Positions 40,228 to 44,003 of a DNA stretch of 64,000 nucleotides are shown one piece after another. The stretch is from assembly GCF_001647715.1 (NCBI RefSeq), contig NZ_CP015600.1, positions 3,968,001 to 4,032,000 on the forward strand, read 5' to 3'. The translations under genes were made by a program, and so were the position numbers. Within the stretch, counting starts at the first letter, position 1, and the number at the start of each line of letters is the position of its first letter. The notes under the pieces were generated by a model, which did not search any database, was not told the origin of the DNA, and was given only the letters and a program-made list of their open reading frames with translations. This stretch comes from Pseudomonas antarctica. GTDB lineage: Bacteria > Pseudomonadota > Gammaproteobacteria > Pseudomonadales > Pseudomonadaceae.

Positions 40228-41629
40228 ACCCCTCGCGGCGTTAGTGCTGCTGGCCTTGCAGGGTTGCTCGCTGGCGCCCACTTACACAGTGCCATCGGTC
40301 GACCTCCCGGCCGACTACCGCGAACAGACCAGCGATGGCCCGTGGCACAGTGCGCAACCGTCCGACCAACTGGCGCCCGAATGGTGGAAGCTCTACAACG
40401 ATTCGCGCCTCAACGACCTGCAACAACAACTGCTCAAGGCCAACCCGGACCTGGCGGCAGCGCTGGCGCACTTCGATGCGTCCCAGGCCTATGCCAGCCA
40501 GTTACATGCCGGGTTATTCCCGCAGATTACCGCCAGCGCGCAGCCGTTGCGCCAGCGTCAATCGGATTCGCGGCCGCTGCGAGGTGATACGCAGCCGTCG
40601 GTCTACAACAGCAATACGGCGGGCTTTTCGTTGAGCTATGACCTGGACCTGTGGGGCAAAATCCGCAACCAGGTCGCGGCGGGTGATGCCCAGGCGCAAG
40701 CCTCCGGGGATGACCTGGCGGTGGCGCGCCTGAGCCTGCAGCATCAATTGGCGACGCTGTATGTGCAACTCAATGGGCTGGATGCGCAGAGCCGGATTCT
40801 GAACAGCTCGCTGGATGATTTCAGCCAGGCGTTGCAACTGACGCGTAGTCGTTATGAGGGCCAGATTGCCTCGGAGCTGGACCTGACCCGCGCGCAAAAT
40901 CAACTGGCCGAAGCCAAGGCGCAACTGGACGAGGTGCGCGGCCAGCGCAACCTGACCGAGCATGCGATTGGTGAACTGGTGGGTGTCGCAGCCAGCGACT
41001 TCACGTTGCCGGCGAGTCAGCAATTGATCGCGTTGCCGGGGATTCCCTCTCAACTGCCGAGCCACCTGCTGCAACGTCGTCCGGACATTGCCGCGGCGGA
41101 ACGCCGGGTGTTCGCAGCCAACGCGAATATCGGCGTGGCGAAAGCCGCGTGGTATCCGGATTTCAGTTTGACCGGATTGATTGGCGGCCAGACACAAGGG
41201 GTTGGCAATCTGCTGTCCGCCGGTAATCGTTATTGGGCGCTGGGGCCGCTGGTTAATTTGCCGATCTTTGACGGTGGACGCTTGAGTGCCAATGAGCGTC
41301 AGGCCAAGGCCGAGTTTGAAGAGGCTTCGGCGCAGTACCGCAGCCATGTACTGAAAGCCGTGCGCGAGGTGGAAGATAACCTCGCGCAACTGCGCGACTT
41401 GCAGCAGGAAGCGCAAGATGAACAAGCGGCGGCGGATGCGGCGCAGCACACGCAGTCACTGGCGATGAACAGCTATCAGGCGGGAGCGGTAAGTTACCTG
41501 GATGTGGTGACGGCGCAGACGGCGGCGTTGCAGGCACAGAGGACGTTGCAGGCGGTGCAGACCCGGCAACTGCAGGCGAGTGTAGGGTTGGTGACGGCAC
41601 TTGGCGGCGGCTGGCAACCCGGCGCCTGA
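40211..41629 (+). CDS. RND efflux outer-membrane lipoprotein (NodT/OprM family)
   Basis: The product is 472 residues. The lipobox is LALQGC. The body shows the duplicated outer-membrane-efflux pattern, including WWKLYNDSRLNDL, GFSLSYDLDLWGK and RRPDIAAAERRVFAANANIGVA. It forms the outer-membrane trimer channel of the system. GGAGG at 40201 gives ATG 40211 a good ribosome binding site. The start overlaps the adaptor gene by 17 nt. Confidence 0.92.
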   Translation: MRPRLKPLAALVLLALQGCSLAPTYTVPSVDLPADYREQTSDGPWHSAQPSDQLAPEWWKLYNDSRLNDLQQQLLKANPDLAAALAHFDASQAYASQLHAGLFPQITASAQPLRQRQSDSRPLRGDTQPSVYNSNTAGFSLSYDLDLWGKIRNQVAAGDAQAQASGDDLAVARLSLQHQLATLYVQLNGLDAQSRILNSSLDDFSQALQLTRSRYEGQIASELDLTRAQNQLAEAKAQLDEVRGQRNLTEHAIGELVGVAASDFTLPASQQLIALPGIPSQLPSHLLQRRPDIAAAERRVFAANANIGVAKAAWYPDFSLTGLIGGQTQGVGNLLSAGNRYWALGPLVNLPIFDGGRLSANERQAKAEFEEASAQYRSHVLKAVREVEDNLAQLRDLQQEAQDEQAAADAAQHTQSLAMNSYQAGAVSYLDVVTAQTAALQAQRTLQAVQTRQLQASVGLVTALGGGWQPGA

Positions 41630-41633
41630 TAAA

Positions 41634-41660
41634 TGTGGGAGGGACTTGCTCCCTCCCACA
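41634..41660 (+). repeat. REP hairpin (class GTGGGAGGGxCTTGCTCCC) after the efflux operon
   Basis: TGTGGGAGG, a GACTTG loop and CTCCCTCCCACA form a compact perfect hairpin 5 nt behind the efflux operon's stop codon. It may double as a terminator and belongs to the REP class found around the RAYT gene. Confidence 0.8.
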
Positions 41661-41704
41661 TCAACACTGCGTTAGACACACAATGTATGAACACCGCTGC
41701 CCCC

Positions 41705-41726
41705 TGTGGGAGGGGGCTTGCTCCCG
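41705..41726 (+). repeat. Single REP copy upstream of the RAYT gene
   Basis: TGTGGGAGGGGGCTTGCTCCC, a class-3 REP, about 100 nt before the transposase gene. Confidence 0.8.
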
Positions 41727-41823
41727 TTAGCGACCTCTGAGACACATCCTGCCAAAAACCTGTCGACCATCCTCGCAACACCAGATCTAGCCTCTCAACA
41801 CACCCCCTGAGAGAGGCCAAGGA

Positions 41824-42282
41824 ATGCCTGAACTACCCGCTTCACACCGTTTGCGCATCGGTCGATTCAGCGAACCAAACCGTACCTACCTGATCACCAC
41901 CAACACTCACGAACGCACACCGATATTCAGCGACTTCCACCTCGGTCGCTTGGTTGTCTGGCAATTGCGGGTCGCCCAGCACCAAGGGCTGGCAAACTCC
42001 CTGGCATGGGTAATCATGCCGGACCATTTCCATTGGCTGCTGGAACTGCAAAAAGGCTCGCTGGCGGACCTGATGTGTCAGGTGAAGTCTAAAAGCACGC
42101 GAAACGTTAACGGCGTCACTGGGCGCAAAGGACGGATTTGGCAGGAAAGCTTCCATGACCGGGCGCTACGCAAGGAAGACGACTTGGTGAAAATGGCCAG
42201 GTATGTGGTGGCCAATCCATTGCGGGCGGGATTAGTGAAGAAGATTGGCGACTATCCGTTGTGGGATGCGATTTGGGTATAG
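41824..42282 (+). CDS. rayT: REP-associated tyrosine transposase (RAYT)
   Basis: The product is 152 residues of the Y1/HUH family. The metal-binding His-x-His motif is in IMPDHFHWLLEL, and the catalytic Tyr in MARYVVANPLRAGLV. The N-terminus (GRFSEPNRTYLITTNTHERTPIF) is typical of RAYTs. These are single-copy domesticated relatives of IS200/IS605 transposases that recognise and are thought to spread REP palindromes. It is flanked on both sides by GTGGGAGGGGGCTTGCTCCC-class REPs, as expected for a RAYT and its cognate elements. The frame is intact. Confidence 0.92.
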   Translation: MPELPASHRLRIGRFSEPNRTYLITTNTHERTPIFSDFHLGRLVVWQLRVAQHQGLANSLAWVIMPDHFHWLLELQKGSLADLMCQVKSKSTRNVNGVTGRKGRIWQESFHDRALRKEDDLVKMARYVVANPLRAGLVKKIGDYPLWDAIWV

Positions 42283-42300
42283 GTCGAGACCGAGTCGCCC

Positions 42301-42746
42301 CTATCGGGAGCAAGCCCCCTCCCACATTTTCCTACGGCATTTCAGGCAGACCGTTTGCCGCTGGCGATCATTGGGCAAGCCTGCTCCCACATCTTGATCA
42401 ATATTCGACAGGACAAGGCGATCAATTGTGGGAGGGGGCTTGCTCCCGATGGCGGTGGGTCAGTTAGCTCAGCCGTAGCTGATACTCCGCTATCGGGAGC
42501 AAGCCCCCTCCCACATTTTCCTACGGCATTTCAGGCAGCCCGTTTGCCGCTGGCGATCATTGGGCAAGCCTGCTCCCACATTTTGATCAATATTCGACAG
42601 GACAAAGCGATCAATTGTGGGAGGGGGCTTGCTCCCGATGGCGATGGGTCAGTCAGCTTATCTGTAGCTGATACTCCGCTATCGGGAGCAAGCCCCCTCC
42701 CACATTTACTTACGGCATTTCAGGCTGCCCGTTTGCCGCTGGCGAT
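42301..42746. repeat. 189-bp tandem REP array containing copies of the adjacent gene's 3' end
   Basis: Unit 1 is 42301-42489, unit 2 is 42490-42678, and a third partial unit is 42679-42746. The period is exactly 189 bp, and units 1 and 2 differ at roughly 8-10 positions. Each unit holds three REP motifs (CTATCGGGAGCAAGCCCCC, GGGCAAGCCTGCTCCCACA, TGTGGGAGGGGGCTTGCTCC). Each also contains a 27-bp copy of the terminal codons and stop of the downstream convergent amidase gene; in the third unit that stretch is the real gene end (42720-42746). Confidence 0.92.
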
Positions 42747-44003
42747 TGCCGCCGAAGCAGCCACCATTGCCCTTAACAACACCGCACACCCTGCCGCCAG
42801 GTCATCCGGTGCGGCGTTCTCGATTTCGTTGTGGCTGATGCCGCCTTCACAGGGCACAAAGATCATCCCGGCCGGGCCGAGTTCGGCGACGAAGATCGCG
42901 TCGTGCCCTGCCCCGCTGACGATGTCCATGTTCGACAGCCCCAACCCATTCGCCGCGTCACGCACAGCGTCCACGCAGCCTTTGTCGAAATACAGCGGCG
43001 GGAAGTCGGCGGTGGGTTCCATTTCAAAACTCAAGCCGTGCTTGGCGCAGGTGTCGTCAATCACCTTGCGCACCTCGGCAATCATCGAATCCAGCCGCGT
43101 CGGTTCCAGATGACGAAAGTCCAGGGTCATGCGCACTTCACCCGGGATCACATTGCGCGAGCCAGGATAGGCCTGCAAACAACCCACGGTGCCGCACGCA
43201 TGCGGCTGATGCCCCAACGCCGCCGCATTCACGGCAGCCACCACTGCTGCCGCGCCCACCAGAGCATCCTTGCGCAGGTGCATCGGCGTCGGCCCCGCAT
43301 GGGCTTCAACGCCGCGCAGTTTGAGGTCGAACCACTTCTGCCCCAAGGCCCCCAACACCACGCCGATGGTTTTCTTCTCATCCTCAAGAATCGGGCCTTG
43401 TTCGATATGGGCCTCGAAATAGGCGCCGACCTTGTGCCCGCTCTCCGGCCGCGTGCCCGCATAGCCAATCGCATTCAATGCATCGCCCACGCTGACTCCG
43501 TCCACGTCGACTTTGGCCAGGGTATCGGCCAGGGTGAATTTCTCGGCGAATACGCCCGAGCCCATCATGCACGGCGGGAAGCGCGAGCCTTCCTCGTTGG
43601 TCCACACCACCACTTCCGGCGGCGCCTCGGTTTCGACGTTGAGGTCGTTGAGGGTGCGCAGCACCTCGACACCTGCCAACACGCCGAAGCACCCATCGAA
43701 TTTACCGCCCGTGGGCTGAGTATCGATATGGCTGCCGGTCATCACCGGTGGCAGGTTGGGATTGCGTCCCGGGCGGCGCGCGAAGATGTTGCCGATGCCG
43801 TCGACGGTCACGGTGCAACCGGCCTCCTCACACCACTGCACGAACAGATCGCGAGCCTTGCGATCAAGGTCGGTGAGGGCCAGGCGGCATACGCCGCCCT
43901 TGGGCGTTGCGCCGAGCTTGGCCAGGTCCATCAGGGATTGCCACAAGCGGTCGCGGTTGATGTGCTGATGGGTGGATTGCAGAACGTCCAGGGCAGCGTT
44001 CAT
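42720..44003 (-). CDS. Beta-ureidopropionase / N-carbamoyl-amino-acid amidohydrolase
   Basis: The product is 427 residues of the M20 metallopeptidase-related amidase family. Metal ligands are seen in GSHIDTQPTGGKFDG, WTNEEGSRF and the C-terminal ISHNEIENA. By context it hydrolyses N-carbamoyl-beta-alanine to beta-alanine, CO2 and ammonia, the last step of reductive uracil degradation. It lies downstream of the NCS1 transporter gene (REP between). Its last 27 bp are part of the REP tandem array. Confidence 0.87.
   Translation of the reverse strand: MNAALDVLQSTHQHINRDRLWQSLMDLAKLGATPKGGVCRLALTDLDRKARDLFVQWCEEAGCTVTVDGIGNIFARRPGRNPNLPPVMTGSHIDTQPTGGKFDGCFGVLAGVEVLRTLNDLNVETEAPPEVVVWTNEEGSRFPPCMMGSGVFAEKFTLADTLAKVDVDGVSVGDALNAIGYAGTRPESGHKVGAYFEAHIEQGPILEDEKKTIGVVLGALGQKWFDLKLRGVEAHAGPTPMHLRKDALVGAAAVVAAVNAAALGHQPHACGTVGCLQAYPGSRNVIPGEVRMTLDFRHLEPTRLDSMIAEVRKVIDDTCAKHGLSFEMEPTADFPPLYFDKGCVDAVRDAANGLGLSNMDIVSGAGHDAIFVAELGPAGMIFVPCEGGISHNEIENAAPDDLAAGCAVLLRAMVAASAAIASGKRAA

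Follow-up and report, generated by a model that had tools for sequence, protein, structure and literature searches.

A tandem REPIN array with copies of an amidase gene end, beside a RAYT gene of Pseudomonas antarctica, and its probable origin by local duplication

In the chromosome of Pseudomonas antarctica (contig NZ_CP015600.1), the 64,000-nucleotide stretch from position 3,968,001 to 4,032,000 (the window, numbered here from its first letter) holds a short tandem array between two convergent genes, one for a REP-associated tyrosine transposase (RAYT) and one for an amidase. The array is composed of repetitive extragenic palindromes (REPs), arranged as inverted pairs (REPINs), together with copies of the last 27 bp of the amidase gene. 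We consider it probable that the array was formed by local tandem duplication at the hairpin-forming REPIN between the convergent genes, which extended into the final part of the amidase gene. Direct action of the RAYT on the array is possible.

The repeat structure is clear. Tandem Repeats Finder (TRF) reports an array at 42301-42746 with a period of 189, 2.4 copies, 95% match and 0% indels, its units starting at 42301, 42490 and 42679, which bears out a preliminary description of this DNA as holding a 189-bp unit twice in full and once in part. Between units 1 and 2 there are mismatches at 8 of 189 positions. The third unit, a partial one of 68 bp with four mismatches to unit 1 and three to unit 2, is the amidase gene's own end; the final 27 bp of that gene, stop codon included, recur in unit 1 (93% identity) and in unit 2 (96%), again as first described. 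Because the copies differ from one another, an assembly artefact was judged unlikely; the array also lies inside a 6.44-Mb contig. Its parts are as follows, none of them assigned to a strand.

42298..42368, no strand: copy 1 of a 71-bp segment, consisting of a REP of the right-REP type, its 3' flank and the 27-bp amidase tail, which here reads RSA (direct-repeat family D2; comparison with the single-copy relative L008)
42369..42486, no strand: copy 1 of a 118-bp segment, consisting of CATT, a REP remnant, a linker, the left REP and the REPIN spacer (repeat D1)
42427..42515, no strand: first full REPIN, left REP plus spacer plus inverted right REP (inverted repeat I1)
42487..42557, no strand: copy 2 of the REP, flank and 27-bp amidase tail, which here reads RAA (D2, 97% to copy 1)
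42558..42675, no strand: copy 2 of the 118-bp segment (D1, 94% to copy 1)
42616..42704, no strand: second full REPIN, a strong hairpin (inverted repeat I3; fold z = -11.0)
42676..42746, no strand: copy 3 of the REP and flank with the true 3' end of the amidase gene (D2, 93% to copy 1)

The gene tail had been described as fused to a REP. A REP remnant does follow the tail, but not directly, since the four bases CATT stand between the amidase fragment (...GGCGAT) and the remnant (GGGCAAGCC...). The two junctions are the same in this respect, sharing CATT and 40 identical bases around it, which is what a single founding event with later amplification would predict. REPs are present as claimed, yet the array contains more than single REPs, namely two full REPINs, whose arms are 86% complementary over 43 nt and 85% over 40 nt, respectively. 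When folded as single-stranded DNA, the second reaches -41.9 kcal/mol (z -11.0). The core GGGGGCTTGCYCCC occurs at 81 sites in the same genome (43 forward and 38 reverse), while a reversed-pattern control gives 0. The elements of the array, inverted REP pairs forming long hairpins and having many dispersed genomic copies, are thus REPINs, and the array, with its near-identical REPIN units and their flanking sequence, is an ordered tandem REPIN cluster. A segment of REP plus coding tail has been copied and amplified adjoining a RAYT gene (NF047646, 157.5 bits), as had been proposed.

For the origin of the array, we made a comparison with a relative that has a single copy. We searched the 3' end of the amidase gene in 398 genomes of the genus, 297 of which matched, and compared 30 loci from this search (including that of the window), a further 40 from its list and 80 named loci, these being the best 80 of 591 confirmed stretches in the GTDB collection; loci L071-L100 and L246-L247 were left out of the analysis. 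The array junction of the window (at most two mismatches) was found in 1 of the 398 genomes, the window's own, and was not seen in relatives. Locus L008 (genome G171) has, in single copy, the RAYT gene, a single REP, a linker like that of the window, an inverted REP pair and the amidase end. The linker in copy 1 of the 118-bp segment matches L008 at 84% (over X 7-69) and, once the extra copies are taken away, the window aligns to L008; the exception is a large part of the REPIN and its spacer, missing from L008. The arrangement of L008 looks like the state before duplication. The REP adjoining the RAYT gene in the window is a hybrid, with a left flank like that of the single REP of L008 and a body and right flank like those of the right REP of the REPIN, as expected for an exchange between two REPs.

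These observations suggest an origin in two steps, of which the simplest version is given here. In the first, a point 27 bp inside the amidase gene would have been joined to the inside of the single REP beside the RAYT gene, and the left part of that REP exchanged with the right REP of the REPIN, leaving beside the RAYT gene a second copy of the REP, its flank and the 27-bp tail (71 bp). Template switching or repair at stalled REP hairpins, or illegitimate recombination, would be the likely route. In the second, unequal crossing over between the 71-bp direct repeats would have produced two full units and the real end. The differences between copies show that they drifted after amplification. 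That the centre of the unit is a REPIN prone to form hairpins is consistent with a trigger such as fork stalling or repair. RAYT action would be unnecessary on this account; at most, the RAYT may have provided the REP-rich context or the single-strand nicks that started the event.

The same locus carries other arrays in related species. The array of P. sivasensis P7 (L101) has a unit of 300 bp in 5.0 copies and runs from about 1436 bp before the amidase end to 64 bp inside it; every unit joins a REPIN to about 96 nt from the end of the RAYT gene and about 64 nt from that of the amidase gene. The units differ from one another at 10 to 20 of 300 positions, and the true gene ends are contained in unit 0 (RAYT) and unit 4 (amidase). 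The RAYT-end copies of units 1-4 have a stop codon in common and so give the impression of non-coding copies undergoing drift. In Pseudomonas sp. MYb60 (L107), a 729-bp unit (2.1 copies, 97%) doubles the entire RAYT gene in tandem. Further array units at the amidase locus measure 136 bp (L014), 134 and 207 bp (L003), 116 bp (L029), 70 bp (L020) and 72 bp (L045). Since unit or place differs among these eight arrays at RAYT-bearing loci, they are probably mostly independent; those of L020 and L045 could be related. In L003 (134 and 207 bp) and L029 (116 bp, 6.2 copies), large REPIN arrays lie upstream of the RAYT gene and are without a copy of the amidase tail. We tentatively consider that the interval between RAYT and amidase genes, with the upstream flank of the RAYT gene, might be a recurrent amplification hot spot in this group of Pseudomonas, in which the resident RAYT, acting on long REPIN hairpins, would trigger breakage or template switching and repeatedly give units with gene ends or a whole RAYT gene, as the family would rarely do elsewhere; we give this idea a minor chance.

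The P. sivasensis array, a tandem array with both breakpoints inside genes, also speaks for plain tandem triplication in the window, in which the amidase end and the RAYT-side REP would have undergone illegitimate recombination and the REPIN of unit 1 would later have been deleted via its two direct REPs. This course yields the identical final sequence; it needs three events for the window against two for the steps given above, and we regard it as improbable.

Copies of the end or a piece of a neighbouring gene, in direct orientation beside the amidase gene, were found at 3 of 142 distinct loci, those of the window, P. sivasensis (L101) and P. aylmerensis (L005, the same locus as L103). The screen took in 150 loci, 142 of them distinct by amidase end, with less than 170 bp downstream in L030/L102 and L165, and covered the end of the outer-membrane efflux gene, which in the window lies upstream of the RAYT gene (profile matches), only where that gene falls within the fetched locus. 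Amidase-tail matches of only 18-29 nt (E 1.4e-4 to 3e-3) in L015, L050/L113, L055, L057/L134, L059, L063, L140 and L161, and weak efflux-gene matches in L014 and L051, were judged to be due to chance and were not counted. In P. aylmerensis, a palindromic repeat of another family occurs twice, and its copies enclose 41 nt from inside the amidase gene (93%) and 48 nt from the end of the efflux gene (83%). No RAYT was found in this 10.3-kb locus (L005), while the genome has two RAYT matches, one of them on another contig.

The question is then whether the RAYT itself made the array of the window. It would have nicked a single-stranded REP, the free 3' end would have primed copying across the REP and into the amidase end, and the product would have been joined to the RAYT-side REP, all of this repeatedly. 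The flanking features are these.

41705..41733, plus strand: REP upstream of the RAYT gene, inverted relative to the downstream REP (inverted pairs I7-I9, 96% complementary)
41824..42282, plus strand: RAYT gene, a 152-aa open frame (NF047646, 157.5 bits against a cut-off of 80; Pfam Y1_Tnp)
42720..44003, minus strand: amidase gene (allantoate amidohydrolase subfamily, peptidase M20 fold family), a 427-aa open frame (NF006769, 670.8 bits against a cut-off of 452; Pfam Peptidase_M20)

The transposase is predicted to be a RAYT, given a profile score over the curated cut-off and inverted REPs on either side (41705-41730 and 42301-42326, 96% complementary). The amidase gene, whose stop codon begins at 42720 on the minus strand, is the source of the copied 27-bp tail. 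A 252-aa open frame on the plus strand (42355-43113) crosses the array and the amidase gene antisense; it is probably spurious and could get annotated as a protein.

That the RAYT is intact and adjacent, and that the copied 71-bp segment begins on its left with a REP, agrees with a RAYT-made array. In addition, HuH cleavage leaves a 3'OH able to prime replication, and cleavage by TnpAREP at distant sites has been seen (PMC8266576). The breakpoints point elsewhere. Cleavage and joining by a RAYT would be expected to place them at REP ends, and the gene-side breakpoints of neither the window nor P. sivasensis were found there. In the window, this breakpoint is 27 bp into the amidase gene, which is linked there to an internal point of a REP; the other joint falls in matching REP sequence, where its exact place is not assignable. 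In P. sivasensis, both unit breakpoints are inside genes and not at REPs. Characterised RAYTs cut at C|T near a REP, with some distant sites, and one relative also cuts at CA, according to the part of the literature considered here (PMC8266576). By eye, the window joint, GCGAT-CATT-GGGC, has no CT and one CA. The four joints in P. sivasensis are ACC-ATG, ACC-GTA (twice) and ACC-GAG; CA spans one of them, and beside another, at a distance of one base, the minus strand reads CT. The position of the P. sivasensis unit ends, both within genes, tells more than these motifs. Since the gene-side joints of both species are inside coding sequence, hairpin-provoked duplication is favoured over clean transposase cutting at REP ends.

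The distribution of arrays speaks partly for the RAYT. We counted arrays with a period of at least 60 and at least 1.8 copies within 1-2 kb downstream of the amidase gene, calling a locus RAYT-less when no RAYT lies within 2 kb, and omitting from the 142 loci L102 and L165 (too little downstream sequence) and L137, L118 and L146 (RAYT below 80% identity, no array). Arrays are present at 8 of 24 loci with this RAYT against 3 of 113 RAYT-less ones (Fisher 3.4e-5), in groups that are not phylogenetically independent; with the window excluded, the counts are 7 of 23 and 3 of 113 (Fisher 1.4e-4). The three RAYT-less arrays (L069, L143 and L148) are other palindromic repeats. P. aylmerensis (L005/L103), uncounted since TRF reports no array there, would raise them to 4 of 113. 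Many RAYT-less loci are without this REP, and among the only 13 that bear its motif no array was found (0 of 13; P 0.032 with the window and 0.034 without). Arrays are thus associated with the RAYT in this amidase-locus sample, uncorrected for descent and REP content. The other 16 of the 24 RAYT-bearing loci showed no array.

Away from the amidase gene, arrays at RAYT loci are rare in our sample. We examined 60 other RAYT loci, with about 2.2 kb to either side, by working down the list of best matches by similarity and leaving out matches at the amidase locus and two near contig ends (G179 and G245). The examined stretch thus differs, being about 2.2 kb on both sides of the RAYT here and 1-2 kb on one side of the amidase gene above. 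An array was found at 1 of the 60 (L269; 101 bp, 3.6 copies), whose unit takes in the last 8 nt of a RAYT gene of 73% identity, and among the 20 loci with a RAYT at least 80% identical there was none. The REP motif of the window is present within about 700 bp at 50 of the 60, L269 not being among them. The proposition that all RAYT loci grow arrays was therefore rejected, and having a RAYT is not sufficient.

REP arrays also occur far from RAYTs in the genome of P. antarctica, of which 62 pieces (1,265,409 bp) were sampled. The second full RAYT of this genome has no array. Both full RAYTs are distant from the arrays at about 270.6 kb (a site picked from the REP-core survey), 401.6 kb and 5.908 Mb; the closest weak RAYT-family match to the first of these arrays lies about 36 kb away. 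No gene tail was seen in the sequence and open frames of these three, the far side of the one at 5.908 Mb not being resolved. At about 5.908 Mb (L241, 8156-9260) a 133-bp REPIN unit forms two arrays (2.2 and 5.8 copies), a long way from the RAYTs found, and at about 401.6 kb (L187, 1639-2282) a REPIN array of a 185-bp unit in 3.5 copies mixes two REP types. Weaker arrays were seen in L206, L225 and L231. Elsewhere in this genome (228.6-234.6 kb, L183-L185), three sub-cut-off matches to the RAYT family fall within 6 kb, one with an internal stop.

Taken together, the excess of arrays at RAYT-bearing amidase loci, and the report of a REPIN cluster beside each of the three RAYTs of strain SBW25 (Bertels and Rainey 2011, PMC3116915), argue for a RAYT-made array. 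Against it stand the absence of CT at the window joint and the P. sivasensis units that start and end inside genes. The near absence of arrays at other RAYT loci, most of which bear the REP motif, and the arrays away from RAYTs in the same genome, likewise count against it, as do the gene pieces copied in P. aylmerensis without a local RAYT, where action in trans is possible. We therefore hold it unlikely that the RAYT built the array. The preliminary description had left the choice between RAYT- or REP-mediated copying and slippage at REP hairpins; slippage or recombination at the hairpins is best supported, while RAYT action is possible, with coding-sequence breakpoints and no clear cut signature against it and the amidase-locus association in its favour.

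Three points weigh against local duplication at the REPIN as we have reconstructed it. Its steps are rebuilt from one relative, L008, with 88.6% DNA identity in the amidase gene; the link between arrays and the RAYT at this locus leaves room for a role of the latter; and microhomology at the junction is short at best (possibly AT, or GCCGCT nearby, by eye), so that the joining mechanism is not fixed.

We also considered whether the array might be retained for a function, such as a set of terminators between convergent genes. It has three terminator-like sites, one per unit and all on the plus strand, and both flanking genes have open frames. The excess of such sites is weak, however (4 in 41600-42900, against a shuffle mean of 1.5, sd 1.4), no array was found at most RAYT-bearing amidase loci, and the gene-tail copies drift, as illustrated by the stop codon in units 1-4 of P. 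sivasensis. We regard retention for a function as very improbable.

The spread of RAYTs and REPs and their formation of arrays are still poorly understood, and captured gene tails are tags for the origin of the DNA and for its joints. What is notable here is mainly that one spot has been amplified differently across related species, and the eight array-bearing amidase loci form a natural series in which hairpin-provoked duplication can be tested against transposase cutting.

The array shares features with several known systems. As in the REPtron, a RAYT/TnpAREP with flanking REPs, the window has a REP-flanked RAYT with an inverted REP on its other side; the unit differs in not being bounded by REPs, its gene-side end being inside the amidase gene (PMC8266576). 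Bacterial interspersed mosaic elements (BIMEs), made of a REP and an inverted REP and often found in consecutive tandem copies (PMC8266576), are alike in their tandem REP pairs. A gene tail within the unit sets the window apart from them. The REP sequence class of BIMEs is probably also different. In enteric bacteria, REPs mediate large tandem duplications between distant REPs, with REPs at the join points; in contrast, the duplication in the window is of about 190 bp, and one of its breakpoints is not in a REP. In Escherichia coli, an interrupted palindrome likewise provokes chromosome rearrangement, although the products described there, without SbcCD and RecA, are large inverted duplications, and that of the window is short and direct (Darmon 2010, PMC3315005). 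There is a likeness, too, to P. fluorescens SBW25, with 16 tandem REPIN clusters "including the flanking sequences" and a higher-order cluster beside all three of its RAYT genes, for which a second mechanism of cluster formation was inferred (Bertels and Rainey 2011, PMC3116915). Both have tandem REPINs with flanks, some beside RAYTs; the units of the window also hold the coding end of a neighbour, which the account of the SBW25 clusters in that paper, as far as considered here, does not mention. The array of the window is one more tandem REPIN cluster, mostly ordinary local duplication into a gene end, to which are added here a gene tail serving as tracer, a single-copy relative and differing arrays at one locus in several species.
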